Below, one piece after another: positions 8,217-51,865 of a stretch of 64,000 nt of DNA (the stretch's first letter is position 1; each line of letters starts with the position of its first letter). Source of the DNA: Rudanella lutea DSM 19387. Its GTDB lineage: Bacteria > Bacteroidota > Bacteroidia > Cytophagales > Spirosomataceae. The DNA lies in contig NZ_KB913013.1 of the NCBI RefSeq assembly GCF_000383955.1, forward strand, positions 2,400,694-2,464,693, in the 5' to 3' direction. Below the pieces are notes generated by a model that saw only the letters and a list, made by a program, of their open reading frames with translations, ran no database searches and had not been told where the DNA came from. The position numbers and the translations under genes are program-made.

Positions 8217-8290
8217 GATGAGTGATGAGCGATAAACGATGAGCCCTTAAAGCTTCTCGTTCATCACTCATCACTTATAACTCATCACTT
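8217..8290. repeat. Intergenic foldback repeat A (GATGAGT word)
   Basis: Left arm 8217-8243 iterates GATGAGTGATGAGCGA; right arm 8256-8290 is made of the complement (CATCACTCATCACTTATAA). The arms pair imperfectly around a 12-base loop. It starts one base after the tsaE stop and ends six bases before the next start codon. Its word family recurs in the repeat at 42767-42873. Confidence 0.7.
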
Positions 8291-8296
8291 AAAGAA

Positions 8297-9505
8297 GTGA
8301 CTGGATTCGAGGAATTAGCCAAGCAAACGGCTTTGTACCCTAAAGAAGCCCCGGCGGCCGTCAGAACGGATAAGCACAGCCTTCAGATTGGCCTGCCCAA
8401 AGAGGTTTCGTTTCAGGAAAACCGCATCGCCCTCACACCCGAGGCCGTCGCGATTCTGGTACGCCATGGTCACCGGGTGGTGGTCGAAACGGCGGCCGGC
8501 ACCGGGGCCAAGTTCAGCGACAACGACTACAGCGAAGCCGGGGCTCAGATTGTGTATTCACCCGAAGAAGTGTTCGACTCGAACGTGATTCTGAAAGTAG
8601 AGCCGCTGGTCGATCATGAGTTTGCCTACCTGAAGTCGGGCAGTACCCTGATTTCGGCGCTCAACCTGCCCTCGCACGAGCGTCGGTACTTCGAGCGGCT
8701 CAACGAAAAACAGATTACCGGTATCGGGTACGAGTACATCGAAGATCCCGGCGGAGGGCTCCCCGTGATCCGAACCATGAGCGAAATTGCGGGCAGTACC
8801 GTCATGCTTATTGCGGGCGAGTACCTCAGCAGTGTCAACGGGCGGGGCGTCATTCTGGGCGGCATCACGGGCGTACCTCCCACCAAAGTGGTGATTCTGG
8901 GCGCGGGCACCGTGGCCGAATACGCGATCCGGGCGGCCCACGGTATGGGCGTTGACATTAAAGTATTCGACCGGCACCTCTACAAACTGCAACGCCTGAA
9001 ATACGCCGTTGGGCAACCTATTTACACCGCCATTATCGACTCCGACACCCTGGCTGAGGCCATCGAACGGGCCGATGTGGTGATTGGAGCCATCCGGGGC
9101 GACGATGGGCACAGCCCCGTGGTTGTAACCGACGAGATGGTGTCACGAATGCGGCCCGAAGCCGTCATTGTCGACGTAGCCATTGATCAGGGCGGCAACT
9201 TTGAGTCGTCGCGCATGACCTCGCACAAAAACCCCACGTTTCAGCACCACGGCATCATTCACTACTGCGTGCCCAACATTGCATCGCGCGTAGCCCACAC
9301 GGCGAGCATGGCTTTGAGCAACATCTTTTTGCCGTTTTTGCTCGAAACCGGCACCATTGGCGGCATCGAAGAAATGATGTACAAGAACCGCTGGTTCATG
9401 AAAGGTGTTTACTCCCACAAAGGCACATTGACCAATGCCTACATTGCCCGCAAGTTCAGTATGCGATTTAAGGATTTGCAGCTCTTGCTGGCCGCACGGT
9501 TTTAA
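8297..9505 (+). CDS. Alanine dehydrogenase / PNT family protein
   Basis: NAD-dependent dehydrogenase of 402 residues with a GTG start, slightly longer than classical alanine dehydrogenase (about 370) because of an N-terminal extension. Family motifs are clear: PKEVSFQENRIALTP (R43), VILKVEPL (K100), nucleotide loop VILGAGTVAEYA, VDVAIDQGG and HYCVPNIASRVAHTAS. At the place where alanine dehydrogenases carry the catalytic His (the LHLA segment), this protein reads ALNLPS, with Asn at 123. The reaction of alanine to pyruvate and ammonia is therefore uncertain, although family membership is firm. The stop is followed directly by foldback repeat B. Confidence 0.85.
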   Translation: MTGFEELAKQTALYPKEAPAAVRTDKHSLQIGLPKEVSFQENRIALTPEAVAILVRHGHRVVVETAAGTGAKFSDNDYSEAGAQIVYSPEEVFDSNVILKVEPLVDHEFAYLKSGSTLISALNLPSHERRYFERLNEKQITGIGYEYIEDPGGGLPVIRTMSEIAGSTVMLIAGEYLSSVNGRGVILGGITGVPPTKVVILGAGTVAEYAIRAAHGMGVDIKVFDRHLYKLQRLKYAVGQPIYTAIIDSDTLAEAIERADVVIGAIRGDDGHSPVVVTDEMVSRMRPEAVIVDVAIDQGGNFESSRMTSHKNPTFQHHGIIHYCVPNIASRVAHTASMALSNIFLPFLLETGTIGGIEEMMYKNRWFMKGVYSHKGTLTNAYIARKFSMRFKDLQLLLAARF

Positions 9506-9598
9506 CAACGAACAACGAACAACCAACAGTGAACAACCAATAGTCTGATAGTACCTTTCGTGGTTCACTGTTGGTTGCTCGTTGTTAACTGTTCACTG
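9506..9598. repeat. Intergenic foldback repeat B (GAACAAC word)
   Basis: Left arm 9506-9543 and right arm 9561-9598 pair over about 26 of 29 bases in the core. The left arm begins at the first base after a stop codon, and the right arm ends two bases before the next ATG, so the repeat is the whole intergenic region. Bases 9511-9537 are identical, in inverted orientation, to 49744-49770 in repeat J. Confidence 0.8.
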
Positions 9599-9600
9599 AC

Positions 9601-10005
9601 ATGATACACCATAGTAACGAAAACGTCCTGCTGGACGACGCGAACTCACCCGACATCAACAAACGATTGATGGGGTTGATTTCAGCCGATTTTGTGCTGG
9701 TGGCCGATCAGCTCAAAGAGGCTTCGTACCAAATCCGGAAGCGTGGCTTTTCGGATTATCCCATTTTTGTGGCCTCTCAACGTCCCCTGGAACTGGGTCA
9801 GTTGCTGATTGGGGCCAAAGAGCTGGCTAATACGTGGGACTACAAAGCCACGTTTGTGGACGAGTTTGTGCAACGGCAGCTCATCGGGCCGGAGTCGGTC
9901 GAGCTGTTCAAGGAGCATTACAAAAACCCCGATGAATACTGCTGCTTGTTTGTAGTGCACAACGAGTTTGCGGGGTTTGTGTACATCCCGTTTCCAGAAG
10001 ACTGA
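9601..10005 (+). CDS. Conserved-looking hypothetical protein, 134 residues
   Basis: I do not recognise a named domain. The protein is acidic and soluble, with no signal peptide or membrane segment. It contains the phrases ADQLKEASYQIRKRGFSDYP, FVASQRPLELGQLLIGAKEL and an ending FVYIPFPED that look like a compact alpha/beta fold. Codon use matches the neighbours, and the ORF is bounded by a foldback repeat upstream and a terminator downstream. It lies ahead of gyrB but is separated from it by 330 bases, so a shared role is not implied. Confidence 0.8.
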   Translation: MIHHSNENVLLDDANSPDINKRLMGLISADFVLVADQLKEASYQIRKRGFSDYPIFVASQRPLELGQLLIGAKELANTWDYKATFVDEFVQRQLIGPESVELFKEHYKNPDEYCCLFVVHNEFAGFVYIPFPED

Positions 10006-10168
10006 CCCCCTCTGTGCTCATACAATCGGTTGCAGTAAATTAATAAGATTTTTCCCAGAACGTTGGCGCAAATCCGACCATCGGCTTACCCGAATGTTGG
10101 CCACCCGGTCAGGGGCGGTCGAAATGACACTAAAGACCACGTTTTAAGGGCAAAAACACGTTTTTGGG

Positions 10169-10198
10169 CGTGGTTCTCTGCAAGGACCACGTTTTTTT
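10169..10198 (+). terminator. Intrinsic terminator before gyrB
   Basis: Stem CGTGGT/ACCACG (10169-10174 with 10186-10191) followed by seven T. It is preceded by related fragments (ACCACGTTTT at 10135 and ACACGTTTTT at 10156) that could form alternative pairings. It closes transcription of the 134-residue gene. The rest of the 10006-10335 gap holds no ORF. Confidence 0.7.
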
Positions 10199-10267
10199 AT
10201 GCATTCAGTCAATCTTGGAGCAGATCGTAGGAAATGACGAATGTTTTTTGTATTTTTACCATCTGAT

Positions 10268-10289
10268 AACGCCTATTTATAGCGTTTTT
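10268..10289 (+). terminator. Weak hairpin with T-run in the gyrB leader
   Basis: Short stem AACGC/GCGTT (10268-10272 with 10282-10286) running into TTTTT, about 46 bases before the gyrB start. It could be an attenuator or part of the promoter region. No function is demonstrated. Confidence 0.25.
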
Positions 10290-10335
10290 CCAGACCCCTG
10301 ACAAAACCGATTCGCTGATATTCTACGAGCATACT

Positions 10336-12345
10336 ATGACAAACGAATTGATCGAAACCGACGTTCTGACCAATACCGCCGACTCGGCCCCCCTGGGGGA
10401 GTACGGAGCCGACAACATCCAGGTTCTTGAAGGATTGGAGGCTGTGCGCAAGCGCCCGGCCATGTATATTGGCGACGTTGGGATCAAAGGATTACACCAC
10501 CTGATTTGGGAGGTGGTCGATAACTCTATCGACGAAGCACTGGCCGGTTACTGCGACACCATACACGTCACTATTAATGCCGACAACTCCATCACCGTGC
10601 GCGACAACGGCCGGGGTATCCCAACGGGTATCAATACCAAAATGGGCAAGTCGGCCCTCGAAATTGCCATGACCGTGCTTCATGCCGGTGGTAAGTTCGA
10701 CAAAGACACCTACAAAGTGTCGGGTGGTTTGCACGGCGTGGGGGTATCCTGCGTGAACGCCCTCTCGACCGATGTCCGCGTGGAGGTTCACCGCGAAGGC
10801 AAAATCTTTGAGCAGGAATACAAAATCGGGATCCCGCAGTACGACGTTCGCGTGATTGGCGAAGCTGACGATACCGGGACCATTACCCACTTCAAACCCG
10901 ACGGCAGCATTTTCACCGAAACCGTGTATCGGTACGACACCGTAGCGGGCCGTCTGCGCGAGTTGGCTTACCTCAACAAAGGCATCCGGATTTTCCTGAA
11001 GGACATGCGGGAGCTCGACGAAACCGGCGAGCCTATCAATCAGACCGAGTTTTTCTCAGAAGGTGGCCTGGTTGAGTTTGTAAAATACCTCGACGAAACC
11101 CGGCCTTCGCTGGACGGCATGGCCCCCGTGTACATGGAGAGCACCAAAGGCTCTACGCCCGTGCAGGTGGCCCTGGTGTACAACTACGAGGCCTCGGAAA
11201 ACGTCTTGTCGTACGTAAACAACATCAACACCCACGAGGGCGGCACGCACGTGCAGGGCTTCCGCTCGGCCCTCACGCGGGTACTGAAGCAATACGCCGA
11301 CAAGAACGCCGATAAGTTCAAGAATCTGGGGAAGCTCACCTTTACGGGCGAAGATTTCCGCAAGGGGCTTACGGCCGTTATTTCGGTGAAGGTGCAGGAG
11401 CCTCAGTTTGAAGGGCAAACCAAAACCAAACTGGGCAATCAGGAGGTGGTGAAGGCCGTGAGTCAGGCAATGGACGAACTGCTCGAAACCTGGCTGGAAG
11501 AAAACCCCAAAACGGCGCAGGGCATCGTGAAAAAAGTGCTCGTGTCGGCTCAGGCCCGCATTGCTGCCGAACAGGCGTACAAGCGGATCATGGCCGACCG
11601 TAAAGACTTTATGGGGGGAGCCGGCCTGCCGGGTAAACTCGCCGACTGCTCAGATACCGACCCCGAACGCTGCGAGCTTTACCTCGTGGAAGGGGACTCG
11701 GCCGGTGGAACGGCCAAACAAGGCCGTAACCGGGCGTTTCAGGCCATTTTACCCCTCCGTGGTAAGATTCTGAACGTAGAGAAGGCCCTTGAGCATAAAA
11801 TCTACGAAAACGAAGAAATCAAGAATATCTGGACGGCCCTCGGCGTTCGACTCGAAAAGAAAGACGACGAGACGGTCATGAACCTCGAAAAACTTCGGTA
11901 TCACAAGGTCATCATTATGACCGATGCCGACGTCGACGGGTCGCACATCCGGACGCTCATTCTGACGTTGTTCTACCGCAACATGAAGGCGCTTATCGAC
12001 AACGGTTACGTGTACATTGCGCAGCCTCCCCTGTACCTCGTGAAAAAGGGGAAGGAAGAGCGTTACTGCTGGACCGAGCAACAGCGCGAACAGGCCGTGC
12101 GTGAGCTGGCCGGTTCGGGCCGGGAAGAGAACGTAAACGTGCAGCGTTACAAGGGTCTGGGTGAGATGAACGCCGAACAGCTCTGGAGCACCACGATGGA
12201 CCCCGAGCGCCGGAGCCTCAAGAAAGTAACGATTGAGTCGGCCGCCGACGCTGATCACGTCTTTTCAACGCTCATGGGCGACGAGGTGGCGCCCCGCCGA
12301 GAGTTTATCGAACGGAACGCTAAATACGCCCGAGTGGACGTTTAA
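10336..12345 (+). CDS. gyrB: DNA gyrase subunit B
   Basis: ATP-driven subunit of the type II topoisomerase that introduces negative supercoils; 669 residues, usual for the family. The GHKL ATPase region has EVVDNSIDEALAGYC, DNGRGIP and GGLHGVGVSCVNALS. The transducer domain follows, then the TOPRIM domain with ELYLVEGDSAGGTAKQGR and MTDADVDGSHI. The C-terminal tail QRYKGLGEMN...MDPERRSLKKV...LMGDEVAPRREFIE is the GyrB rather than ParE form. gyrA is not in the window. An intrinsic terminator lies 19 bases after the stop, so the gene is probably monocistronic. Confidence 0.97.
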   Translation: MTNELIETDVLTNTADSAPLGEYGADNIQVLEGLEAVRKRPAMYIGDVGIKGLHHLIWEVVDNSIDEALAGYCDTIHVTINADNSITVRDNGRGIPTGINTKMGKSALEIAMTVLHAGGKFDKDTYKVSGGLHGVGVSCVNALSTDVRVEVHREGKIFEQEYKIGIPQYDVRVIGEADDTGTITHFKPDGSIFTETVYRYDTVAGRLRELAYLNKGIRIFLKDMRELDETGEPINQTEFFSEGGLVEFVKYLDETRPSLDGMAPVYMESTKGSTPVQVALVYNYEASENVLSYVNNINTHEGGTHVQGFRSALTRVLKQYADKNADKFKNLGKLTFTGEDFRKGLTAVISVKVQEPQFEGQTKTKLGNQEVVKAVSQAMDELLETWLEENPKTAQGIVKKVLVSAQARIAAEQAYKRIMADRKDFMGGAGLPGKLADCSDTDPERCELYLVEGDSAGGTAKQGRNRAFQAILPLRGKILNVEKALEHKIYENEEIKNIWTALGVRLEKKDDETVMNLEKLRYHKVIIMTDADVDGSHIRTLILTLFYRNMKALIDNGYVYIAQPPLYLVKKGKEERYCWTEQQREQAVRELAGSGREENVNVQRYKGLGEMNAEQLWSTTMDPERRSLKKVTIESAADADHVFSTLMGDEVAPRREFIERNAKYARVDV

Positions 12346-12364
12346 GTATAAAAACAGTTGCGAA

Positions 12365-12389
12365 AGCGGGCAGAACAGCCCGCTTTTTT
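12365..12389 (+). terminator. Intrinsic terminator of gyrB
   Basis: Stem AGCGGGC/GCCCGCT (12365-12371 with 12378-12384) and six T. Its presence argues against an in-frame TTG start for ppk1 at 12358. Confidence 0.85.
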
Positions 12390-12432
12390 GTTTTACTTTG
12401 ACAGACAGCCCACACAAGAACGATCTGAACCC

Positions 12433-14730
12433 ATGTTGAAACAATTCATCAATAAACTGACGAACCCTAAGCATTCCTCAGCGGGGGAACCTGGTCATAT
12501 GGCTAAAGTCAGCGAAAAAGTAAGCAGTGTTATTGATCAGAGCGACTACCTCAGTCGTGATCTGAGTTGGTTGAAATTTAACGAACGGGTACTCGATCAG
12601 GCGCGTAGCCCCGAACGAACCCTGATGGAACGGCTTAAGTTTCTGGCCATTACGGCATCGAATCTGGATGAGTTCTTTACCATTCGGGTGGGTAGTCTGT
12701 ACAATTATCTTGATTACCACAAACAGCGGGTCGACTATTCGGGTCTGCGCGAAATTCCGTTTCGCAAAGCCCTGTTCACGGCCGCGCAGCAGTTCAGTCA
12801 GGAGCAACAGGCCGTGTACCAGAACGAACTCCTGCCCCTATTTCAGAAAAACGAGCTGCGTATTGTTCAGATAGCCGACCTTACCCGGCACGAACAAAGT
12901 CAGGCCAACGATTATTTCGACCGGACGATCTACCCGACGCTCACCCCCATGATCTACGACTACACGCATACCTTCCCGGTATTGCTGGCTAAAGTCCTGA
13001 TCTTCGGGGTCGTGACCCAAAACACCGACGTGGCCGACGGCCGCAAGATTCTGTCGGGCGATGAAGACGACCGGCAGCGGCTGTCGTTTGTGCAGATTCC
13101 GGCCAACCTGCCCCGCTTCATGACATTTGAGCGGCAAAGCGAGACCCTGTTTCTACCCATTGAGGAAATTGTGCGGCACAACATCAAAAAGTTGTACCGC
13201 AACGTCGAGATCCTGGCCGTAAACCTGTTTCGGATTACGCGCAACGGCGATTTCACGCTCGAAGAAAGCGACGATGCCGAGGTGGATTTCATCGACGAGG
13301 TAAAGCAGAAAATCAAGAACCGACGACTCGGGCGGGTGGTGCGTGTTGAAACCCAAACGGTTGACTACGGCGAGCCCAGTGTTGAGTGGATGATCAAGCT
13401 GGTGAAAAAACGGTGGGAAATCGACGATTATAACCTCTTTGAAGCAGCCTCACTTATCGACTTCACCAGCCTGTGGCAGATCATCAAATACCCTGATTTT
13501 AAGGATGATATGCCCGTGCCACATCCGCCGGTCCCCCCACTGGGCCTGAACCGCGAGAAGGTAGCCGACATTTTCGAGACCATCCGGGAGCGCGACCTGT
13601 TTCTGCATCATCCGTTCAATAATTTTGAACCGGTACTTCAGCTGCTCGAACAGGCTGCCGAGGACCCTACGGTGCTGGCCATCAAGCTGACTATTTACCG
13701 GTTGGCTAAGCATTCGCGCGTGACCGAAGCCCTGCTCAAAGCCGCCGAAAACGGTAAACACGTATCGGTACTGTTTGAGGTAAAAGCGCGTTTCGACGAA
13801 GAAAACAACATTCGGGAAGCTCAGCGCCTGCAAAAAGCGGGTTGCTTCGTGATTTACGGCATCAGCAAGTTTAAAACCCATACCAAGCTGCTGCTGGTAG
13901 TGCGTAACGAAGGCGACCGCGTAGTGCAATACGCGCACCTGTCGAGCGGTAACTACAACGAAGAAACCTCGAAAATGTACACCGACATTGGCCTGCTCAC
14001 GGCCAATGAAATTATCACGCGCGACATTGCCGAGTTTTTCAACGTTATCACGGGGCACTCGCTGCCCAACCGGTACCAGTACCTGATTACGGCCCCGCGC
14101 AACATGCGCAACCAGCTAATCGAGTTAATTCAGGCCGAAGCCGAAAACGCCCGGCAGGGGGTTCCGAGCGGTATCTGCATCAAAATCAATTCGCTCGAAG
14201 ACAAAGCCGTGATCGATGAGCTGTATCAGGCTTCACAAGCGGGTGTGCCGATCCGGCTCATTGTCAGGGGTATTTGCTGTCTGCGGCCAAAACGCGAGGG
14301 CTTAAGTGGGAATATTACCGTTCGCTCGGTTGTAGGCGACTACCTGGAACACACCCGGATATTCTATTTTCACAACAATGGCAAACCCAAGGTTTACGGC
14401 GGTAGTGCCGACATCATGGTGCGGAGCCTCGACCGGCGGATCGAATCGCTGTTTCTGCTGGCCGACGACCGGGTAAAACAGCAGGCCATCCATATTCTGA
14501 GCTACAACCTGCGCGACAACGTGAACGCCTACGAACTGGCCGAAGACGGTACGTACCAGAAATGCCAGGTTGCCGAAGGCGAAGAGCCGTTTAATATTCA
14601 CCAGCGCTTTTTCGACGTCAACTGGTCGGATGTGATGCAGGCCCGGCTCTTCGAGGGTGAGCATATGGACAAACCGGCGCCTGAAATTCATCTCGACGAA
14701 AGCGAGGAACACGCCATCGCTAACCTGTAA
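12433..14730 (+). CDS. ppk1: Polyphosphate kinase 1
   Basis: Reversibly transfers the gamma-phosphate of ATP to polyphosphate; 765 residues from the ATG at 12433. A TTG at 12358 would put the start inside the gyrB terminator, and MAKV at 12499 is a possible alternative. The N-terminal and head domains carry YLSRDLSWLKFNERVLDQA and ASNLDEFFTIRVGSLYN. The catalytic PLD-like domains carry FKTHTKLLLVVR, containing the His that is phosphorylated, and VYGGSADIMVRSLDRRIE. The protein acts in phosphate storage and stress response. No ppx or pho gene is adjacent. It is convergent with a sigma-factor gene, with a foldback repeat and a strong bidirectional hairpin between. Confidence 0.96.
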   Translation: MLKQFINKLTNPKHSSAGEPGHMAKVSEKVSSVIDQSDYLSRDLSWLKFNERVLDQARSPERTLMERLKFLAITASNLDEFFTIRVGSLYNYLDYHKQRVDYSGLREIPFRKALFTAAQQFSQEQQAVYQNELLPLFQKNELRIVQIADLTRHEQSQANDYFDRTIYPTLTPMIYDYTHTFPVLLAKVLIFGVVTQNTDVADGRKILSGDEDDRQRLSFVQIPANLPRFMTFERQSETLFLPIEEIVRHNIKKLYRNVEILAVNLFRITRNGDFTLEESDDAEVDFIDEVKQKIKNRRLGRVVRVETQTVDYGEPSVEWMIKLVKKRWEIDDYNLFEAASLIDFTSLWQIIKYPDFKDDMPVPHPPVPPLGLNREKVADIFETIRERDLFLHHPFNNFEPVLQLLEQAAEDPTVLAIKLTIYRLAKHSRVTEALLKAAENGKHVSVLFEVKARFDEENNIREAQRLQKAGCFVIYGISKFKTHTKLLLVVRNEGDRVVQYAHLSSGNYNEETSKMYTDIGLLTANEIITRDIAEFFNVITGHSLPNRYQYLITAPRNMRNQLIELIQAEAENARQGVPSGICIKINSLEDKAVIDELYQASQAGVPIRLIVRGICCLRPKREGLSGNITVRSVVGDYLEHTRIFYFHNNGKPKVYGGSADIMVRSLDRRIESLFLLADDRVKQQAIHILSYNLRDNVNAYELAEDGTYQKCQVAEGEEPFNIHQRFFDVNWSDVMQARLFEGEHMDKPAPEIHLDESEEHAIANL

Positions 14731-14734
14731 ATTA

Positions 14735-14824
14735 AACGTAGAATGGACAGTGTAGAATGAATAACGAGCAAGCTCATAAACAGCAGGATGAGTCATTCTC
14801 CATTGTGCATTGTTCATTCACGTA
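14735..14824. repeat. Intergenic foldback repeat D (GAATGA/GGACAGTG word)
   Basis: Left arm about 14735-14771 and right arm 14788-14824 are imperfect complements (ACGTAGAATGGACAGTG against CATTGTGCATTGTTCATTCACGT). It begins four bases after the ppk1 stop and sits just before a separate terminator. Confidence 0.6.
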
Positions 14825-14835
14825 CAAAGACAAAA

Positions 14836-14874
14836 GCAAACGGCCGGATCAAAACGATTGATCCGGCCGTTTGC
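14836..14874. terminator. Bidirectional terminator between ppk1 and the sigma-factor gene
   Basis: Perfect 15-base stem (14836-14850 with 14860-14874) starting GCAAACGGCCGG around a nine-base loop between convergent genes. Confidence 0.8.
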
Positions 14875-14892
14875 CTAAATGCGCCTTCCTTT

Positions 14893-32095: not shown

Positions 32096-32205
32096 TGTAC
32101 AGTTGTGGTTTTTAGTTTATCGTTTCTGGTTCAATCTTGTTCATGTTCAAGCCAAGTTATCAGCACCGGAACAGAGCATACCCTGAGCAAAACCCTACAT
32201 AAAAC

Positions 32206-32233
32206 AAAAAAGCCCGCGGTTGCGGGCTTTTTT
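32206..32233. terminator. Bidirectional intrinsic terminator
   Basis: Stem AGCCCGC/GCGGGCT (32211-32217 with 32222-32228), GGTT loop, flanked by A-run and T-run, so it works for both convergent genes. Confidence 0.9.
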
Positions 32234-32253
32234 GTTATGTCTTCAGAGCAGAC

Positions 32254-35183: not shown

Positions 35184-35330
35184 ATGCAACCGAACGAACA
35201 AAATCAGCAGGATAACAATAACAGCACGGCACCCGACAGCGAAACGCAGTCGTCGGCAGCCAGCTCATACGGCGACCGGACCACCGAAGAGGGCTCTAAG
35301 GCGCCGGATATGCCCGCAGAGGGGGAGTGA
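35184..35330 (+). CDS. Small hydrophilic ORF, 48 residues
   Basis: Starts MQPNEQNQQDNNNSTAPDSE and ends APDMPAEGE. It is rich in Asn, Gln, Ser and Glu and predicted disordered. Like the preceding 84-residue protein it is low-complexity and hydrophilic. A perfect foldback repeat begins two bases after its stop, the same placement seen after other genes here, which supports it as a translated gene. No family is recognised. Confidence 0.5.
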   Translation: MQPNEQNQQDNNNSTAPDSETQSSAASSYGDRTTEEGSKAPDMPAEGE

Positions 35331-35332: not shown

Positions 35333-35419
35333 AATGTATAATGAAGAATGCGTAATGAATAATGGGGTAAACAGGAGTCTATCCTACCATTATTCATTAC
35401 GCATTCTTCATTATACATT
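35333..35419. repeat. Intergenic foldback repeat E (AATGAA word), perfect arms
   Basis: The arms 35333-35365 and 35387-35419 are complementary at all 33 positions around a 21-base loop. The word AATG recurs within the arm. It starts two bases after one stop codon and ends 17 bases before the stop of the convergent mutase gene, so it could terminate both. Confidence 0.9.
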
Positions 35420-39418: not shown

Positions 39419-39529
39419 ATGGGAACGCGGATTGAACAGATTTGGCGGATTTACACGAATTTCCCGACTCATTCCAATAGTCCAAAAACCGGTTTACCTC
39501 TGTCAAATCCGTTCAACCCGTGTTCCCAT
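39419..39529. repeat. Intergenic foldback repeat L (GGATTGAACGGATTT word)
   Basis: Left arm 39419-39455 and right arm 39493-39529 are imperfect complements built on GGGAACNCGG, TTGAAC and GGATTT. The right arm ends four bases from the stop codon of the Ddl-like gene. Confidence 0.65.
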
Positions 39530-42766: not shown

Positions 42767-42873
42767 GAGATGAATGGTAGGTGATGAGCGACGAACAAGG
42801 CTGTTTTGCCATTTACCGACAAATGGCCCTACACGCTCAACACGCATTACTCATCGTTCATCACTCATCATTA
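42767..42873. repeat. Intergenic foldback repeat F (GATGAGT word)
   Basis: Left arm about 42767-42796 and right arm 42844-42873 are imperfect complements. An inner perfect hairpin GCCATTT/AAATGGC sits near 42808-42827. The right arm overlaps the stop codon and last codons of the GSCFA gene, and the left arm ends eight bases before the mrp start. Shares CGTTCATCACTCATCA with repeat A. Confidence 0.6.
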
Positions 42874-44621: not shown

Positions 44622-44653
44622 AAAAAGCCCGGCTACCTGAGGGCAGCCGGGCT
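44622..44653 (-). terminator. Intrinsic terminator of rplI
   Basis: Stem AGCCCGGCT/AGCCGGGCT (44645-44653 with 44626-44634) on the minus strand, followed by TTTT. Ends the S6-S18-L9 gene group. Confidence 0.85.
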
Positions 44654-44684
44654 CGTATCTATTGGTGTCGCGTGGGCGTGTCGC

Positions 44685-45128: not shown

Positions 45129-45135
45129 TTTTCTG

Positions 45136-45238
45136 AAAGTTTTCAGTCTTCAGTTTTCAGTTTTCAGTTGTGCAAGGCGGCTTTGCCAATCTGCATCGAC
45201 CAAAAACTGCAAACTGCAAACTGTAAACTGCAAACTTT
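45136..45238. repeat. Intergenic foldback repeat G (CAGTTTT word) between rpsR and rplI
   Basis: Arms 45136-45170 and 45204-45238, each 35 bases, are complementary at about 28 positions. One arm abuts the rpsR stop codon, and the other ends eight bases before the rplI start. Unlike most copies, the first arm in the mRNA sense (AAAGTTTGCAGTTTACAG) is not purine-rich. Confidence 0.75.
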
Positions 45239-45490
45239 TTATTTGAGTGAATCAGCTACGTACGGTAAGATGGCGATATGGCGGGCCCGCTTTACGGCCT
45301 GACCCACTTTGCGCTGGTACTTCAGGCTGGTGCCTGTCAGACGCCGGGGCAGAATCTTGCCTTGCTCGTTGAGCAGCTTCAGCAAAAAGTTTGCGTCTTT
45401 GTAGTCGATGTACTTGATGCCTGACTTCTTGAAGCGGCAGTATTTTTTGCGGTTCTCGGTTTTCGAGACGGATTCGTTCTGTAAGCTCAT
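45239..45490 (-). CDS. rpsR: 30S ribosomal protein S18
   Basis: 83 residues. Family segments are [40 protein letters not shown] and [19 protein letters not shown]18 pairs with S6 on the 30S platform. The gene follows rpsF with only two bases between stop and start. Its stop codon abuts repeat G. Confidence 0.98.
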
Positions 45491-45492
45491 GA

Positions 45493-45864: not shown

Positions 45865-45892
45865 TATTGGTAAACAGTTTAAAATGAGGGTG

Positions 45893-45900
45893 CAAAGGTA
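45893..45900 (-). promoter_or_regulatory. -7 promoter box TACCTTTG of rpsF
   Basis: Perfect TAnnTTTG on the minus strand, 29 bases before the rpsF start, immediately next to foldback repeat H. Confidence 0.6.
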
Positions 45901-45901
45901 A

Positions 45902-45989
45902 GAATAAAAGGAGAAAGGAGGAAGGGAGAAGGCAGAAAAATTCTGCGTCCCCTTTCCTCCTTTCCCCCTCTCCTGCTTTCCTCCTTTTA
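45902..45989. repeat. Intergenic foldback repeat H (AAGGAGG polypurine word)
   Basis: Left arm 45902-45937 is almost pure purine; right arm 45941-45989 almost pure pyrimidine. They pair imperfectly around a very short loop. The right arm ends two bases from the stop codon of the coiled-coil gene. Long polypurine/polypyrimidine tracts can also form triplex DNA. Confidence 0.65.
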
Positions 45990-45991
45990 TA

Positions 45992-46933
45992 CTATTTCAC
46001 CGTAAACTCGCCTTCTCCGATTTTGAAGCCCTCGGCGTACACCTCCACCACGTGTCGGCCTTCGTTGAAGCGTCCGTTGCCCCGGCCATACACAAAATCG
46101 ACCTGCTGACGGCTATTGGTGAACTGGATCGATTGCGCAGCGGTATAAATCATACCCTTACCGTTGTAGGTAAATTCGCCCGAACCCGTTGCCATATCCG
46201 ACAGAATAGCCCCGCTGGGGTCGAGTACCCGGATGTAAATGGTTTTTTCGTTTTGCTGCGCCAGGCTGTTTTCGGCTAACCGGAACGATACCTTGATTTT
46301 ATCGAGCTGCCGGGCGCGGTAACTGCCGCCGTCACGCTCCTTGCCCCGCGTATTGAGCGAATTGACCATGATATTCTCCGCCCTGAGGGCCGATGCAATG
46401 GTGACTTTTTGCTCCAGCTCGCGGTTACGAACCGAGTACGTCGATACCGAATCCGACAGAGCGGCTCGCTCTCCACGCAGGCCCGCGTTCTCTTCCGACA
46501 AGGTTCGGTTTTGAGCCGCCAAAACCCCGTTCTCCTCCCGAAGCCGGGCAATCTCCTGATCTTTCTGGGCCAGCAGTGATTCGTACTGACTGACGCGCTG
46601 TGCATACTTTTTGTTGTCGAAGTTGTTGACGTTGCGGAGGTTACGCTTGTCGGCCTCCAGTTGATCTTTCACCCGCAGGAGCGAATCGACGTTGCCGCCC
46701 AGCCGCTGAATTTCCGTAATTTTCAGATCAAGCTGGGCCGAAATGGAATCCAGCTTGGTTTTCGTTGCCAATACCTCCTCGGTTTTGGCCGCAATGGTAA
46801 CATCTTTTGTTTTTCCCATCTCCCGTTCCTGATACCAGAAATAGAGCTGGAGTACGTTGAGGGCCACCAGTACCAGTAAAGCAGCAATAAGATAATTCCG
46901 ACCGTTGTTTCGTTTTTCGGAGCGAGCTTCCAT
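45992..46933 (-). CDS. Membrane-anchored coiled-coil protein of unknown function
   Basis: 313 residues from the ATG at 46933 (MEARSEKRNNGRNYL), chosen because a perfect -7 box lies about 40 bases upstream, inside the longer ORF. One transmembrane helix (about 14-34: LIAALLVLVALNVLQLYFW) is followed by a long heptad-rich coiled coil (about 45-200: QKDQEIARLREENGVLAAQN and similar). A beta-rich C-terminal domain follows (VSFRLAENSLAQQNEKTIYI, then HVVEVYAEGFKIGEGEF). I do not recognise the C-terminal family. It faces the periplasm or is cytosolic depending on topology. Divergent from yggS. Confidence 0.85.
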   Translation of the reverse strand: MEARSEKRNNGRNYLIAALLVLVALNVLQLYFWYQEREMGKTKDVTIAAKTEEVLATKTKLDSISAQLDLKITEIQRLGGNVDSLLRVKDQLEADKRNLRNVNNFDNKKYAQRVSQYESLLAQKDQEIARLREENGVLAAQNRTLSEENAGLRGERAALSDSVSTYSVRNRELEQKVTIASALRAENIMVNSLNTRGKERDGGSYRARQLDKIKVSFRLAENSLAQQNEKTIYIRVLDPSGAILSDMATGSGEFTYNGKGMIYTAAQSIQFTNSRQQVDFVYGRGNGRFNEGRHVVEVYAEGFKIGEGEFTVK

Positions 46934-46974
46934 AGGCGTTAAAAATAGCAACAGGGCGACTATCGGGCCCGGCG

Positions 46975-46982
46975 CAAAGGTA
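46975..46982 (-). promoter_or_regulatory. -7 promoter box TACCTTTG of the coiled-coil gene
   Basis: Perfect consensus on the minus strand; gives a short leader of about 35 bases and decides the start at 46933. Confidence 0.6.
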
Positions 46983-47103
46983 CAACCCCTGACCTGACCA
47001 CCGACCTCTCCCCTATTCAATACAAACGTTTGACGCTGGATGTTTACCCTCTCCAACGCTCATTTTGGCGAAAAACTACTCGATTCGCTACACAACTCAA
47101 ACC

Positions 47104-47111
47104 TATCTTTG
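47104..47111 (+). promoter_or_regulatory. -7 promoter box TATCTTTG of yggS
   Basis: Perfect consensus on the plus strand, about 85 bases before the chosen ATG at 47196, in the divergent gap. It supports the later start, since the longer ORF begins upstream of it. Confidence 0.55.
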
Positions 47112-47195
47112 CTAATTCTTCTTTGTAGGAGTAGGCTGCCGTATGTACGTACAGCCCCTGTCCGATGGATTTTGCCTTGTTCCGCTACTTCACGC

Positions 47196-47858
47196 ATGAC
47201 AACTATTCAGGATAATATCGCCCGGCTCGAACAAACGATCCGGGGGCGCGCCCGGCTGATCGCCGTAACGAAAACCAAACCCGTTCCGATGCTCCAGGAA
47301 GCCTACGACGCGGGCTGCCGCGACTTTGGCGAAAACCGGGTACAGGAGATGGTCGAGAAGTACCCGCAGCTCCCGGCCGATATTCGGTGGCATCAGATCG
47401 GCCACCTTCAGAGCAACAAGGTGAAATACATTGCGCCCTTTGTAGCCCTGATTCACTCGGTAGATAGCCCGGCGTTGCTGAAAGAGATTAACAAACAGGC
47501 CGCTAAAAACAACCGGGTGATCGACTGTCTGCTCCAGATTTTTATTGCGCAGGAAGACACCAAGTTCGGCCTCGACCCCGCCGAAGCCCGCGCGCTGCTG
47601 CAAAGCCCTGACCTTGACGCCCTCACGCACGTGCGGCTGGTGGGCCTCATGGGCCTGGCGACCAACACTGACGACGAAGAACAGGTACGACAGGAGTTCA
47701 GAAGCCTGAAAAAACTGTACGACGAACTGGCCTCGATTCAACGGCCCAACGTGGCCTTCTCGGAGCTGTCGATGGGAATGAGTGGTGATTACGAGCTGGC
47801 GATTGCCGAAGGCAGCACAATGGTTCGGGTGGGGAGTGCTATTTTTGGATCACGATGA
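47196..47858 (+). CDS. YggS-family PLP homeostasis protein
   Basis: 220 residues from the ATG at 47196 (MTTIQDNIARLEQTI). Single-domain alanine-racemase-like TIM barrel that binds pyridoxal phosphate and balances vitamin B6 and amino-acid pools. The PLP lysine is in LIAVTKTKPVPML. Further conserved segments are FGENRVQEMVEKY, WHQIGHLQSNKVKYIAP, LGLATNTDDEEQ-like LMGLATNTD, and ELSMGMSGDYELAIAEGSTMVRVGSAIFG. The stop overlaps the start of the DUF423 gene as ATGA, so the two are co-translated. Confidence 0.96.
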   Translation: MTTIQDNIARLEQTIRGRARLIAVTKTKPVPMLQEAYDAGCRDFGENRVQEMVEKYPQLPADIRWHQIGHLQSNKVKYIAPFVALIHSVDSPALLKEINKQAAKNNRVIDCLLQIFIAQEDTKFGLDPAEARALLQSPDLDALTHVRLVGLMGLATNTDDEEQVRQEFRSLKKLYDELASIQRPNVAFSELSMGMSGDYELAIAEGSTMVRVGSAIFGSR

Positions 47859-48232
47859 AATTCTTTATTCAAACCGGGGCTCTGCTGGGCCTGCTGGGCG
47901 TAGGGCTGGGAGCCTTTGGCGCTCATGCGTTACGCAAAATGCTCGACGAAACGGGCCGGGCGGCTACGTTCGAAACGGCCGTTAAATACCAGTTTTACCA
48001 TGCGTTGGCGTTAGTGCTGGTCGGTGTACTGATGCAGCTCATGAGCCAAAATCCAATGGCCCTGAAGTGGCTCAACTACGCTGGGTTGTCGTTTCTGGGT
48101 GGAGTGCTTATTTTCTCAGGCTCGCTGTATATCCTGTGTTTCTCCGGAATCACCTGGCTGGGGGCCATCACGCCTATCGGCGGAGTGCTCATGATTCTGG
48201 GGTGGGCGCTGCTGTTCTGGGCCGTGAAATAA
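47855..48232 (+). CDS. DUF423 (YgdD-type) small membrane protein
   Basis: 125 residues with four hydrophobic helices. It begins MKFFIQTGALLGLLGVGLGAF and has the family motif GAFGAHALRKML, then FETAVKYQFYHALALVLVG and ITPIGGVLMILGWALLFW. DUF423 proteins are widespread inner-membrane proteins of unknown function. Overlaps yggS by four bases. Its stop codon is followed without gap by foldback repeat I. Confidence 0.93.
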   Translation: MKFFIQTGALLGLLGVGLGAFGAHALRKMLDETGRAATFETAVKYQFYHALALVLVGVLMQLMSQNPMALKWLNYAGLSFLGGVLIFSGSLYILCFSGITWLGAITPIGGVLMILGWALLFWAVK

Positions 48233-48361
48233 ATGAGTGAAAGAGCGAAAGAGTGGCTGACGCGTATTACTCGTGCGTCCGTTACTCTTTCGCTCTTTCA
48301 CTCTTTCACTCTTTCACTCTTTCACTCTTTCACTCTTTCACTCTTTCGCTCTTTCACTCAT
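48233..48361. repeat. Foldback repeat I with a nine-unit tandem array of CTCTTTCA
   Basis: Left arm 48233-48254 is a perfect 22-base complement of 48340-48361. Between them lies a tandem array of the 8-mer CTCTTTCA (48285-48356, nine units, two with G for A at the last base). The left arm starts right after the DUF423 stop, and the right arm contains the rodA stop codon. Exact tandem copies suggest slippage, so the unit number may vary among strains. Confidence 0.9.
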
Positions 48362-49635
48362 CGTGTAAACATCCCGGCCCGGCGCGAGTCGAGCTTGAGG
48401 AAAATAAAGAGCAGAATAGAGAACGACCACAACGACGATCCGCCGTAGCTGAAAAACGGCAATGGAATACCAATTACGGGCATCAGGCCGATGGTCATAC
48501 CGATATTGACCATAAAGTGGAAAAAGAAAATACCAGCCACGCAGTAGCCATACACCCGGTTGAACTTACTCCGCTGTTTTTCCGCCAAAATCACAATCCG
48601 AGACAACAGCCCCAAAAACAGGGCAATCACGACGGCACTGCCAATAAAGCCGTGTTCTTCGCCGATCGTGCAGAAAATAAAATCGGTGCTCTGTTCGGGT
48701 ACAAAGTCAAATTTGGTCTGGGTGCCTTCCAGAAATCCCTTACCCTGCAAACGTCCTGACCCAATAGCAATTTTGGCCTGTGTCACGTTCCAGCCTACCC
48801 CCAACGGGTCGATGTTGGGATTTACGAGCACCTTGATGCGGTTGCGCTGGTGTTTCTGCAACACATTGTTCACGAAGAAGTCGACGCCCGTCACGAAGAC
48901 CATCATCCCGGCAATCACAACGCCCATGCTGATAAAGTTGCGCGTTGTACGGTTGTAACGGGGCATCAGAAACGCAAACGCCACCGCCACCGCCACCAGC
49001 CCGAAGAATATATACAGCTTTGGAAAAACGAGGGCCAGAACAAACAGGGCCGCCAGAGCAATGCCAGCTGCCGGAATCCAGCCCGGCAATCCCTCGCGAT
49101 AGAGCATAATCACAAAGGCCGCAAATACCAGGGTAGACCCCGTTTCGTTGGAGGCAATAATGAGCAGGGCTGGCAAGCCAATAATTCCCGCAATAGGCAG
49201 CAAATCTTTGTAGCGACTCAGGTTGATACCCGGCACATCGAGGTACTTGGCCAGGGCCAGGCTCGTGGCCACTTTGGTAAATTCGGCCGGCTGAATGGAG
49301 AACGCGCCAAATTTAAACCACGACCTCGACCCGTTGATGTTGGAACCAGCAACGAGTACCAGCAGCAACATCAGAATCATGAAGCCGTAAAAAATATAGG
49401 CAAACGAGTCGTAAAACTTGTGGTGAATGGCCAGTACACAGATCACCAGAATCACGGTGGTACCAATCCACATGAGTTGTTTACCGGCATTGGTCGACAA
49501 GTCGAACAGGCTCGTCTGATCTTCGGGGCTGTACACCGCAGCGTACACATTGAACCAACCCATCATTACACAGCCTATGTACAGTGCAACGGTGAGCAGG
49601 TCTATATTTTGGGAAAACGGATCGTTACGGGACAT
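48358..49635 (-). CDS. rodA: SEDS-family peptidoglycan glycosyltransferase RodA
   Basis: Integral membrane enzyme of 425 residues with about ten helices that polymerises lipid II during cell elongation together with PBP2. Conserved segments are NINGSRSWFKFGAFSIQPAEFTK split over the third extracellular region, SNETGSTLVFAAF, EGTQTKFDFVPEQSTDFIF with the essential acidic region, and PVIGIPLPFFSYGGSSLWSF. The start MSRNDPFSQNID is followed by the first helix. The mrdA gene lies upstream on the same strand, separated by foldback repeat J of about 150 bases. Its stop codon lies inside repeat I. Confidence 0.96.
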   Translation of the reverse strand: MSRNDPFSQNIDLLTVALYIGCVMMGWFNVYAAVYSPEDQTSLFDLSTNAGKQLMWIGTTVILVICVLAIHHKFYDSFAYIFYGFMILMLLLVLVAGSNINGSRSWFKFGAFSIQPAEFTKVATSLALAKYLDVPGINLSRYKDLLPIAGIIGLPALLIIASNETGSTLVFAAFVIMLYREGLPGWIPAAGIALAALFVLALVFPKLYIFFGLVAVAVAFAFLMPRYNRTTRNFISMGVVIAGMMVFVTGVDFFVNNVLQKHQRNRIKVLVNPNIDPLGVGWNVTQAKIAIGSGRLQGKGFLEGTQTKFDFVPEQSTDFIFCTIGEEHGFIGSAVVIALFLGLLSRIVILAEKQRSKFNRVYGYCVAGIFFFHFMVNIGMTIGLMPVIGIPLPFFSYGGSSLWSFSILLFIFLKLDSRRAGMFTR

Positions 49636-49644
49636 GATTTTTTA

Positions 49645-49782
49645 CAGTGAACAACGAGCAACTAACAACGATCTGTGAGAATGGGCCCGGCAAGTTTTGG
49701 CTGTCAGGTTTTGCAACTGCTCACTGTTTACTGTTAGTTGCACGTTGTTCACTGTTGGTTGTTCGTTGTTAATTGTTCACTG
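49645..49782. repeat. Intergenic foldback repeat J (GAACAAC word) between mrdA and rodA
   Basis: Left arm 49645-49679 and the long right arm 49719-49782; CAGTGAACAACG at the left pairs with the complement near 49740-49754 at 21 of 22 positions. The right arm abuts the mrdA stop codon, and the left arm lies ten bases before the rodA start. Bases 49744-49770 match 9511-9537 of repeat B exactly in inverted orientation. Confidence 0.8.
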
Positions 49783-51732
49783 CTACTCGCCACTATTACT
49801 GGCCATCATGGGCTTGAGTTTTTCTACCTTGCGGCCGGTATCCTTGCGCATCGAATCGGGCTTACGGATCTGCGGGGCCTGTTTGGGGCCTTTGTAGCCC
49901 GGCAGCATCGACACCGGGGGCAGCAGATACTGCTTTTTCACGTGCTCGTCGAGCTTGGTGGCTTCGGTTTTACGTTTCAGATACCGCTCAGCAATGAGAG
50001 CCGCCACCGGAGCAGCCGCTGACCCACCCCAGCCGCCGTATTCCACAAACACGGCAATGGCAATTTTGGGGTTGTTCATGGGCGCAAACCCGATAAAAAT
50101 AGAGTGGTCGTACTTGTGACCAAACTTGTTGTTCTGGGCCGTACCGGTTTTGCCGCACAGGTCAATGCCCGGAATATCGGCCATCTTGTTTACGGTACCA
50201 GCCGCAACGGCCATCCGCATACCCTCGATCACGGGCAGGTAATGCTGATACGCAATATCGGTTTCGTGCCGTTTGAGGTACTCCTGCGGCACGCCCTCAC
50301 CCACCCGGCCAACGCCTTTTACGTAGTGTGGCGTAATGTACCAGCCTCGGTTGGCAATCGTAGCCGCCAGATTCACCAGCTTGAGGGGGTTCACCAGCAA
50401 CTCGCCTTCACCGATACTGAGCGAGTAAATATTCGAAAACTTCCAGGTGTTTTTGCCCCGGTACAGCTTGTCGTAGGTTTCAACATCGGGCAGGCTACCT
50501 TTCAACTCTGTAGGCAAATCGACACCCAGTTTCTGACCGATTCCGAACTTCTCTACCGCATCGTGCCACTGCCGCAAGCCAATCGCCGACGCTTTAAACG
50601 TATTCGACTCACCGTTGTGGTAGATCATCTTGCGGAACACGTTGTAGAAGTACGGGTTGCACGAAAACCGCACAGCCCCACGCAGGTTGTTACCACCATG
50701 ACAGTGGCAGCGCATCGGCGACCCACCATGCCCATACACCATATTGGGTGTGAGCGTGCCCTGCTGTTGCGCAATCAGGGCCTGAATCAGCTTAAACGTA
50801 GAGCCCGGCCGGTAACTCGCCATAATCGGGCGGTTGATGAGCGGCTTGTACGGGTCACGCAGCAGCTTGACGTAATTTTTGGAGAAGTGTCGGCTCGACA
50901 GCAGGTTGGGGTCGTAGGTCGGGGCGGATACTGACACCAGAATTTCGCCGGTCGAGGGTTCCACCGCAATCACACTACCAATCCGATTCTGCATAAGGCT
51001 GTCGGCGTATTTCTGCACTTCCACATCAATGCCGGTATAGAGGTTTTTACCGGCAACGGCGGCCGTATCGTACAGGCCATTCTTAAACGACCCTTTGGCT
51101 ACCCCCCGCACGTTTTGCATCACAAACTTGACCCCCCGCTTTCCGCGCAGCACCTCTTCGTACTGCTCTTCAAGCCCGTTGTGGCCAATGTAATCGCCCT
51201 GCCGGTAGTAGGGAATCTCCTGATTTTCGAGCTGCTTTTTGCTTATTTCCGACACATACCCGAGCGCATTCGACAGGGTACGGGCCGGGTATGTCCGCAT
51301 GGAGCTCATACGCGGCTCGAAACCCCGGTAATCGACGAGGGCATCCTGAATACGGGCAAAATCTTCTTTGGAAAGCTGACGAACAAACAGCGACGGCTTC
51401 ACGGGCGAGTACTCCTTGGCCAGGTTCATGATGCTATCGAACTCAGCACGAGTCATTTCCATCATCCGGCAAAAGGCCGTCGTGTCCGGAATGCGTACCT
51501 GCTTCGGCGTCACGTACAGGTCGTACACGGGCGTGTTGTACACAATGAGTTTCCCATTTCGATCGTAAACCTGTCCCCGGTACGGAATTTCAATGACCCG
51601 TTTGATGGAGTTGTTCGACGATTCGAGCGAGTAACTGTCGTCTAAAATCTGGAGATAAAACAAGCGGGACAGATATATCAGCCCGACGAGGCAGAAAGCG
51701 CCGATGATGATATACTTACGATTCTCTAACAT
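49783..51732 (-). CDS. mrdA: Penicillin-binding protein 2 (elongation transpeptidase)
   Basis: 649 residues. One N-terminal membrane helix (about 8-27: IIIGAFCLVGLIYLSRLF), a dimerisation/pedestal domain (about 50-230: VIEIPYRGQVYDRNGKLIVYN), then the transpeptidase domain. Catalytic motifs are intact: GSTFKLIQA with the nucleophile Ser and Lys, SCN in RFSCNPYFYN, and CGKTGTAQN. It cross-links peptidoglycan along the side wall as partner of RodA, encoded downstream. The mreBCD genes that often accompany this pair are not in the window. The C-terminal tail is Lys-rich. Confidence 0.97.
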   Translation of the reverse strand: MLENRKYIIIGAFCLVGLIYLSRLFYLQILDDSYSLESSNNSIKRVIEIPYRGQVYDRNGKLIVYNTPVYDLYVTPKQVRIPDTTAFCRMMEMTRAEFDSIMNLAKEYSPVKPSLFVRQLSKEDFARIQDALVDYRGFEPRMSSMRTYPARTLSNALGYVSEISKKQLENQEIPYYRQGDYIGHNGLEEQYEEVLRGKRGVKFVMQNVRGVAKGSFKNGLYDTAAVAGKNLYTGIDVEVQKYADSLMQNRIGSVIAVEPSTGEILVSVSAPTYDPNLLSSRHFSKNYVKLLRDPYKPLINRPIMASYRPGSTFKLIQALIAQQQGTLTPNMVYGHGGSPMRCHCHGGNNLRGAVRFSCNPYFYNVFRKMIYHNGESNTFKASAIGLRQWHDAVEKFGIGQKLGVDLPTELKGSLPDVETYDKLYRGKNTWKFSNIYSLSIGEGELLVNPLKLVNLAATIANRGWYITPHYVKGVGRVGEGVPQEYLKRHETDIAYQHYLPVIEGMRMAVAAGTVNKMADIPGIDLCGKTGTAQNNKFGHKYDHSIFIGFAPMNNPKIAIAVFVEYGGWGGSAAAPVAALIAERYLKRKTEATKLDEHVKKQYLLPPVSMLPGYKGPKQAPQIRKPDSMRKDTGRKVEKLKPMMASNSGE

Positions 51733-51785
51733 GAGACAAAATTCCGGAAATCCGAGCTACGCGATTCAAACCCACTACAAAGTTA

Positions 51786-51865
51786 GAGCATAAGAAATGG
51801 ATAAGGAAGAGTACGTAATAATAATACGCCGTTTCCCTCCCTTGTCCTTTCCTCCCTTCTCCTTC
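51786..51865. repeat. Intergenic foldback repeat K (polypurine word), degenerate
   Basis: Arm near 51790-51812 (AAGAAATGGATAAGGAAGA) and pyrimidine-rich arm 51831-51865 pair only partly. The right arm ends at the base before the stop codon of the SMP-30-like gene. It is the weakest member of the series but has the same placement and strand bias. Confidence 0.45.

Follow-up and report, generated by a model that had tools for sequence, protein, structure and literature searches.

What puts a long foldback repeat directly behind a bacterial stop codon: a signal that acts in RNA, a mobile element, or the copying of DNA itself? The question is raised by a stretch of 64,000 nucleotides from Rudanella lutea DSM 19387, here called the window (contig NZ_KB913013.1, positions 2400694-2464693, inside a 6.55-Mb genome). 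A preliminary description of the window had listed eleven intergenic gaps, each containing a low-complexity arm built from a short repeated word and followed by its own complement. Heptamer arrays near stop codons have been noted in distant bacteria, with no explanation offered for their unit length. In Rudanella, one genome combines a common geometry with many different words, and the corresponding gaps of a close sister species hold changed words, so that turnover can be measured. Here we describe these repeats in the window, in a larger sample of the genome and in related genomes. We consider it moderately probable that tandem arrays of 7-8 bp after stop codons are folded back and renewed by polymerase template switching, with some palindromic mobile elements among them.

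Periodic hairpins at gene ends

The sample from R. lutea comprised 1.19 Mb of the 6.55 Mb (18%), and some counts were made on subsets of 724 kb or 1.009 Mb. Genes were called with a home-made finder, whose stops are reliable and whose starts are less so. Each of the eleven gaps was scored for gapped inverted repeats and compared with 300 dinucleotide shuffles of its own sequence. The stem length of minimum-free-energy folds had been tried as a measure of hairpins and was dropped in favour of the gapped inverted-repeat score, as it was far too lenient on shuffled gaps. An arm with its own complement was found in ten of the eleven gaps, which scored above all 300 of their shuffles (scores 34-99, p=1/301), and not in the gap at 51786-51865 (score 23, p=0.086). 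That one site, which is not separable from its shuffles, would suit an explanation by chance complementarity of low-complexity DNA. As a general account this explanation is extremely improbable and is already refuted, as inverted repeats with a score of at least 16 numbered 70 in real gaps and zero in ten gap shuffles.

The genome-wide check for which the preliminary description had called (724-kb sample) revealed both an enrichment of inverted repeats at stop codons and an excess over shuffled controls. Ungapped inverted repeats scoring at least 16 were intergenic in 81 of 82 cases, with one in a coding region and none in ten gap shuffles (724 kb). With the score lowered to at least 14 (n=103, 724 kb), the density per 10 kb of gap was 36.8 between convergent genes, 8.6 and 9.9 between tandem genes and 2.7 between divergent genes. 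Gapped hairpins with scores of at least 39 numbered 192 in 1.009 Mb, and were sorted into 67 periodic hairpins, 22 hairpins with a T-run and 103 others. The rule for 'periodic' is passed by approximately 6.5% of shuffled arms, and some 11 of the 67 periodic calls are thus perhaps due to chance. The period was 7 in 51 of them, 8 in 14 and 9 in two. Periodic hairpins lay at a median of 3 nt from a stop codon, and 63% of 65 were within 5 nt, as against 5% of 20 T-run hairpins and 18% of 99 other hairpins. Among the cases in tandem gaps (n=52), the stop side was no more than 5 nt away in 63%, compared to 36% under uniform placement, and the start side in 13%. The density of periodic hairpins was lowest in divergent gaps. 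In the window, an arm had been placed within four bases of a stop codon at all eleven sites. This is true of the intervals as originally drawn, in one case solely by virtue of a 48-amino-acid open reading frame (ORF) at 35184-35330; for the best-scoring repeats it is true of seven of the eleven, or six without that ORF.

The periodicity was also apparent without reference to folding. For periods 4 to 11, tandem arrays in 155,663 gap bases numbered 1, 0, 1, 80, 34, 5, 1 and 1 (shuffles gave at most 0.4 each). The corresponding counts in 1,024,026 bases of coding DNA were 2, 2, 11, 6, 6, 15, 3 and 3, with no peak at 7 or 8. Among the period-7/8 arrays in the gaps of this 1.19-Mb sample (n=114), 87 overlap an inverted-repeat arm; the remaining 27 are single, unfolded arrays. 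Nine word families were distinguished by eye: AATGNNN, AACAGTG/AACAACG, AGTTTNN, GAGTGAAA, GGAGNNN, GATGAGT, GGACNNN/AGACNNN, GCAGTNN and AAGGGAG; 13 of 78 periodic hairpins of R. lutea fell outside all of them. Many units consist of about four fixed bases and a number of freer positions. The period was 7 in all 17 R. lutea cases of the AATGNNN family and 8 in all 12 of the GAGTGAAA family. Identical word families return across the genome, and the earlier suggestion that each site is built from its own word therefore cannot be upheld in its strong sense. The only G-rich words, by eye, were AAGGGAG and GGAG.

The first arm had further been described as purine-rich at ten of the eleven sites, and we reproduced this figure: purines make up more than half of the 5' arm everywhere except in the repeat at 45136. 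The same was found in 55 of the 67 periodic hairpins, the exceptions being mostly AGTTT types as judged by eye. A purine-first sense is common to the non-periodic classes as well (73 of 103 other hairpins and 17 of 22 T-run hairpins). Single unfolded period-7 arrays with AAACC-type words were noticed at C 129564, D 7770, D 93853, L052 9786, L054 1376 and L088 5573, and lie at a distance of 0-10 bases from where their gap ends on the right-hand side.

Period-7/8 arrays were also present in related genomes. We counted 35 (28 in inverted repeats) in a close sister Rudanella genome, taken as R. paleaurantiibacter (G001, here the sister genome), eight (seven) in a third, more distant Rudanella (G002), and 11 (seven) in other genera of the family. 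By the typing rule, periodic hairpins occurred in five of 14 genomes of other genera, with 15-80 kb sampled per genome. Ten stretches from other Cytophagales families gave four period-7/8 arrays, one of them in an inverted repeat, and their shuffles gave one. Twelve further loci, among them one with the label Cytophagales, had no period-7/8 array, and shuffles gave one.

Retention and turnover of the words

The sister genome is colinear with the window at a DNA identity of 88-95%, and the third genome shows 80% identity over one gene. A 950-amino-acid protein encoded in the window matches R. paleaurantiibacter with 96% in the best segment. Three segments provided a set of orthologous gaps, in which 256 of 328 R. 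lutea gaps of 30-800 bp had a counterpart in the sister genome. Counterparts of less than 20 bp were left out of the first two segments, where empty sites are therefore under-counted. Hairpins scoring at least 42 were found in 58 of the 256 gaps in R. lutea and in 66 in the sister genome. Fifty gaps had them in both, against 15 expected if the two were independent. The hairpin was periodic in both species in 19 gaps, compared to 5.3 in permutations matched for class and length (maximum 12 of 5000), and 27 of 31 periodic hairpins of R. lutea faced a sister hairpin scoring at least 33 (15.4 when permuted, maximum 23). The identity between partners had a median of 0.68 for periodic hairpins (28 comparable pairs) and 0.82 for other hairpins (35 pairs); coding anchors in segment C are approximately 92% identical. 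Judging from these alignments, a hairpin usually keeps its place when close sister species are compared, but its sequence differs.

The changes were of several kinds. Identical partners were found at 2755373 and 2767495. At many sites the word drifts unit by unit, as from CAGTGAA to CAGTAGG at 2775330 and 2767909, or from GAGTGAAA to GAGTGAAT at 2448926. Outright swaps are few: AACAACG is replaced by GGAGTGA with a GTTGCTGACGC core at 9506 of the window, AACAGTG by GGAGTGA at 2481742, and GATGAGT by AGTTTTC, in a weak hairpin, at 8217 of the window. Low identity alone was rejected as a sign of replacement because it over-calls; several of the ten pairs below 0.56 turned out to be unit drift of CAGTNNN words or nested or added insertions. 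The clean swaps that remained by eye are those at 2408909, 2410199, 2446558, 2481742 and 2759248; at 2408909 and 2759248 the hairpin of one species is weak. As the third genome retains an AACA word at 9506, the swap at this site probably occurred in the line of the sister species. A change of another kind was found at 35333, where the 33-nt arms are identical in R. lutea and the sister genome and the 21-nt loop is inverted.

The features of the window are collected in the table below. A search against Rfam at gathering thresholds gave no matches in the window.

Table. Foldback repeats and neighbouring features of the window (positions in the window; word period in brackets).
Feature	Position	Strand	Remarks
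Foldback repeat, word GATGAGT (7)	8218..8278	.	2 nt past stop at 8215; score 46, p=1/301
Foldback repeat, word GAACAAC/AACAGTG (7)	9511..9586	.	5 nt past stop; score 69
Foldback repeat, AATG-type word (7)	14742..14811	.	11 nt past stop; score 36; second arm eroded in sister genome
Separate short non-periodic hairpin (contrast)	14836..14874	.	In the convergent gap shared with 14742..14811; conserved in sister genome
Ordinary short T-run terminator-like hairpin (contrast)	32203..32236	.	Conserved in sister genome
Possible 48-amino-acid ORF, end TGA TAA	35184..35330	+	Directly before the AATG hairpin; seen on translation, absent from the gene finder's calls
Foldback repeat, word AATGNNN (7)	35333..35419	.	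33 of 33 pairs; score 99
Foldback repeat, word GGATTGAAC (9)	39419..39529	.	3 nt from stop of minus-strand gene; score 58; conserved in sister genome
Foldback repeat, GATGAG-type	42773..42872	.	Right arm overlaps gene 3' end at 42851 (overlap 22); score 34
Foldback repeat, word CAGTTTT (7)	45136..45238	.	Reaches stop at 45239 (distance 0); score 67
Foldback repeat, word AAGGAGG/AAGGGAG	45901..45993	.	Overlaps stop by 2; score 57
Foldback repeat, word GAGTGAAA (8), inner GGCTGACGC	48232..48306	.	Overlaps stop by 1; score 68
Foldback repeat, word CAGTGAACAACG (7)	49644..49755	.	Best repeat 27 nt from stop; score 66
Purine/pyrimidine-rich stretch; inverted repeat not significant	51793..51853	.	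Score 23, p=0.086; 12 nt from stop

Turnover can be followed at several of these sites. In the gap orthologous to 8218..8278, the AGTTTTC hairpin of the sister genome has a score of 25, and the third genome has a single CCACTNA-type array and no hairpin. At the place of 9511..9586, the word that the third genome retains is GAACAGC. The distance of the 35333 repeat to the nearest stop is 2 nt if the 48-amino-acid ORF is real, and 16 nt to the next called gene. The gap orthologous to 45136..45238 carries an AGTTTAT word in the sister genome; in the third genome it measures 1 bp, without a hairpin. In the gap orthologous to 45901..45993, the sister genome has a GGAGATA word with a GTTGCTGACGC core. 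Beside this GGAG hairpin lie about 60 nearly pure C, possibly an assembly fault. The array of 48232..48306 continues to the opposite stop at 48358, and the words of the sister genome at this repeat are GAGTGAAT and GAGTGATT. At 49644..49755 the word in the sister genome is GCAGTNN; in R. lutea, a further period-7 array with units reaching the stop occupies 49752-49782.

RNA signals, mobile palindromes or DNA copying

The stop-proximal position, the scarcity in divergent gaps and the presence of hairpins at orthologous gaps raise the possibility of RNA devices, in which selection retains a hairpin that ends transcription, protects the 3' end of the mRNA or insulates neighbouring genes, with the word free to change. 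An RNA stem of one sense under selection would be expected to accumulate G.U mismatches in excess of A.C mismatches, and the two should be equal in the case of no selection and no mutational strand bias. We counted both in tandem gaps, pooling hairpins of R. lutea and the sister genome, which are partly orthologous. The outer eight stem positions were excluded because hairpins chosen for a T-run are enriched for T in their outer arm, which biases the count for this class. In T-run hairpins (n=78), G.U exceeded A.C by 42 to 10 (31 to 3 by hairpin). The numbers were 68 and 65 in periodic hairpins (n=91; 21 and 22 by hairpin), and 88 and 69 in the others (n=114; 30 and 25 by hairpin). The periodic class thus showed no excess in a test that works on the T-run control. 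For hairpins that could be aligned at 0.7 or above, we also set compensated double changes against single ones. T-run hairpins (n=22) had 16 doubles against 27 singles, with 0.8 doubles expected, and other hairpins 18 against 91, with 3.0 expected. The changes in periodic hairpins were mostly single and uncompensated, and 27 of the 114 arrays lie outside any hairpin. Short non-periodic hairpins with compensated stem changes between species were seen by eye at 2466839, 2511348, 4607747 and 4611178, several of them of terminator type.

A canonical stem and T-run terminator was lacking in 65 of the 78 gaps with a periodic hairpin and present in 13. Short convergent gaps with a periodic hairpin did contain fewer ordinary terminators (1 of 10 against 26 of 46, p=0.012), which speaks for RNA devices. 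There was, however, no such exclusivity in tandem gaps (p 0.41-1.0) or in longer convergent gaps (p 0.57 and 1.0), and crowding could explain the difference. One pair in a 30-bp stem is perhaps too cheap for selection to see, and the G.U test is to that extent not final. Overall we regard RNA devices as unlikely. The best reading of the alignments is that RNA roles find no support in the sequence and that any RNA effect would be secondary; the roles in transcription end, mRNA protection and insulation offered by the preliminary description are unsupported by the mismatch count, and compensated changes are few. A role at the level of translation, as a backstop in which stop triplets within the words halt ribosomes running past the gene in all frames, is very improbable. 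The 5' arms contained 362 stop triplets, their dinucleotide shuffles 288±11 and the 3' arms 107, and neither period, 7 or 8, is divisible by three. On the other hand, repeated units make these counts far from independent, 11 of 67 5' arms contain no stop, AGTTT and AAGGGAG words are stop-poor by eye, and a backstop does not require the second arm.

Dispersed palindromic mobile elements that insert behind stops, each word being one element family, were considered next to these roles. Such elements could resemble repetitive extragenic palindromes (REPs), REP doublets forming hairpins (REPINs) or miniature inverted-repeat transposable elements (MITEs), and REPs are reported to lie near gene 3' ends (PMC3733652). 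The GTTGCTGACGC...GCGTCAGCAAC cores recur in R. lutea, the sister genome and two other genera. The pattern GCTGACGC..GCGYCAGC occurred at 13 places in the R. lutea genome and its reversed control at none. Of 12 displayed R. lutea core sites, eight lie in GGAG arms, two in AATG arms and two in neither. A stricter GTTGCTGACGC core was found in seven of 291 Cytophagales genomes and three of 116 genera, all of one family. Judging from this recurrence, the GGAG/GTTGCTGACGC family is a putative dispersed element. The CGTC of the GCTGACGC/GCGTCAGC cores is internal, not terminal, and is present in some hairpins only. Loops of the GAC family have a common motif (p=0.009 against other families, 0.028 against shuffles), and this family alone passed both controls: AGTTT gave 0.036 against other families and 0.195 against shuffles, the GGCTGACGC motif in AATG loops was significant against shuffles only, and the AATG, GGAG and GAGTGAA motifs were significant against neither. 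The sister genome also has a nested insertion at 2684927, and at 2775330 an added palindrome resembling one that flanks a Y1_Tnp gene.

Concerning the heptamer class as a whole, mobile elements are nevertheless a rather doubtful explanation. The loops of 52 of 62 periodic hairpins (loops of at least 14 nt; 1.19 Mb) have no second copy, and orthologous sites show drift of the word from one unit to the next. None of four Y1_Tnp genes is flanked by heptamer hairpins within approximately 1.5 kb on each side, although an AAGGAG-type hairpin follows the gene next to one of them. Spread driven by REP-associated tyrosine transposases (RAYTs) was rejected for this class, as the flanks of the four genes carry other repeats. 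At the single empty site (third genome, gap of 45136), the edges are A/T-rich and no clear target-site duplication was seen by eye. One Y1_Tnp (RAYT-like) gene lies between two copies of a non-periodic palindrome, GTACAGTGAAGCGGTGCTTCGCTG... (L148 1299-1414 and 2053-2168), and palindromes like it by eye were noticed at L099 8894 (own 2380873), L065 6985 and G001 2775330. This palindrome is likely a RAYT-moved element. Palindromes with TTCGACAGGCTCAG, often joined to a GCTGACGC end, lie at own 4569206, L054 11394, and G001 4532111 and 2684927.

These results bring us back to the origin by DNA copying that we favour. Arrays would grow in 7-8 bp register directly behind stop codons, slippage adding units, and the second arm would be made and renewed by template switching on the foldback. 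Gene ends may be the places where such DNA is tolerated, or where transcription events at the 3' end start arrays. Point mutation would then lead to decay, followed by renewal or replacement in place, and palindromic mobile elements (the GGAG/GTTGCTGACGC family and a RAYT-linked family) may join some sites, which would explain part of the abrupt changes. The preliminary description had proposed a generating process of slippage and foldback copying rather than the spread of one element. The variety of words within a common geometry, the 7-8 bp arrays, their location in arms in 87 of 114 cases with 27 single, the 52 loops that have no second copy in 1.19 Mb and the one loop inversion agree with this proposal; the words common to many sites and the dispersed GGAG/GTTGCTGACGC family do not. 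Loss of SbcCD as the cause of tolerated palindromes was considered and dropped: sbcD spans positions 1-249 of 252 in both the sister and the third genome, and in R. lutea its front part lies under an N stretch and cannot be judged. A match to sbcD less than 600 bases from a contig start was seen in five of 41 genomes (G001:C13:371, G040:C3:269, G053:C20:326, G197:C22:382 and G312:C56:599).

Several observations weigh against an origin by DNA copying. Compensated double changes in periodic hairpins (n=28) are few, 12 against 123 singles, with 3.5 expected. Continual correction of one arm by the other is therefore weak, and renewal must happen in larger steps, none of which was caught in the act. 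A clear loop inversion was found in just one of 24 hairpins with an arm identity of at least 0.7 (a second, at 2778111, is borderline), and recombination between the 33-nt arms could also have inverted the loop at 35333. Loop uniqueness is not distinctive, as a second copy exists for 10 of 62 periodic and seven of 46 other hairpins, and the cores common within some families indicate that part of the class spreads as elements. The high retention in the sister genome could reflect selection. Retention is poorer in the third genome, in which counterparts were available for five gaps only. At the four of these with a periodic hairpin in R. lutea or the sister genome, it has one strong hairpin, one weak hairpin (score 33), one single unfolded array (8217) and, where the genes are 1 bp apart (45136), nothing. 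The 7-8 bp ruler and the purine-rich 5' arm are not accounted for. We put forward a bolder form of the copying origin as a long shot: at gene ends of Rudanella and its kin, directed copying, possibly primed by transcript 3' ends, would write purine-first units of 7-8 bp, fold back to produce the second arm and perpetually rewrite the words, the ruler being the footprint of the enzyme.

Comparison with known systems

If DNA copying does make and renew these hairpins, an RNA function cannot be read from the mere presence of a long paired stem where a bacterial gene ends, and the count of G.U against A.C mismatches would provide a simple way to separate RNA from DNA causes. Rudanella also makes the question of the narrow 7-8 bp unit testable. 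Many-word heptamer foldbacks in this group were not found among the matches listed in the open literature, searched by titles and the beginnings of abstracts, and the papers listed for Rudanella itself concern other subjects by their titles, which is no proof that they are unpublished.

Hairpins made in a single event by template switching, which also gives arm homogenisation and spacer inversion, are described for RNA genes and yeast coding genes (PMC8794818, PMC8604942). The Rudanella case is tied to arrays at bacterial gene ends, with one clear inversion. The GTAG- and CGTC-tagged REPs with their RAYT transposases (Di Nocera et al. 2013, PMC3733652) are palindromes that, like the Rudanella hairpins, are located near the 3' ends of genes, chiefly where the gap is convergent or tandem, and may overlap stops. 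They are, however, 20-40 bp long and form fixed families, whereas the Rudanella arms are arrays of 7-8 bp, most of their loops have no second copy in the sample, and they do not border the RAYT-like genes. The TAACTGA arrays (MacGregor 2015, PMC4679880), found also in Bacteroidetes and Cyanobacteria, are likewise intergenic heptamer arrays, and their insertions and deletions between two Cyanothece strains are mostly in steps of 7. Unlike the Rudanella arrays, they consist of one word, mainly in direct repeats just before starts, with a single indirect repeat reported for the BOGUAY genome.

The closest precedent appears to be the heptameric GGGAATC and GGGGA(C/T)T repeats of Xanthomonas and Nostoc (Rehm et al. 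2015, PMC4692102). As described there, these have a 7-base unit in which some positions are fixed and others free, lie near or overlapping stops on the coding strand and are few between divergent genes. The Rudanella arrays share with this class an intergenic tandem unit of approximately 7 bp that is stop-proximal and rare between divergent genes. Inverted pairs are on record in Xanthomonas (70 cases among 186 repeats and 75 among 183), and prominent repeats stand at different genes in two species (PMC4692102). The repeats of Rehm et al. have one G-rich, quadruplex-forming word. Those of Rudanella, in contrast, have approximately nine words, are mostly folded back, and keep the hairpin with a changing word in the close sister species.

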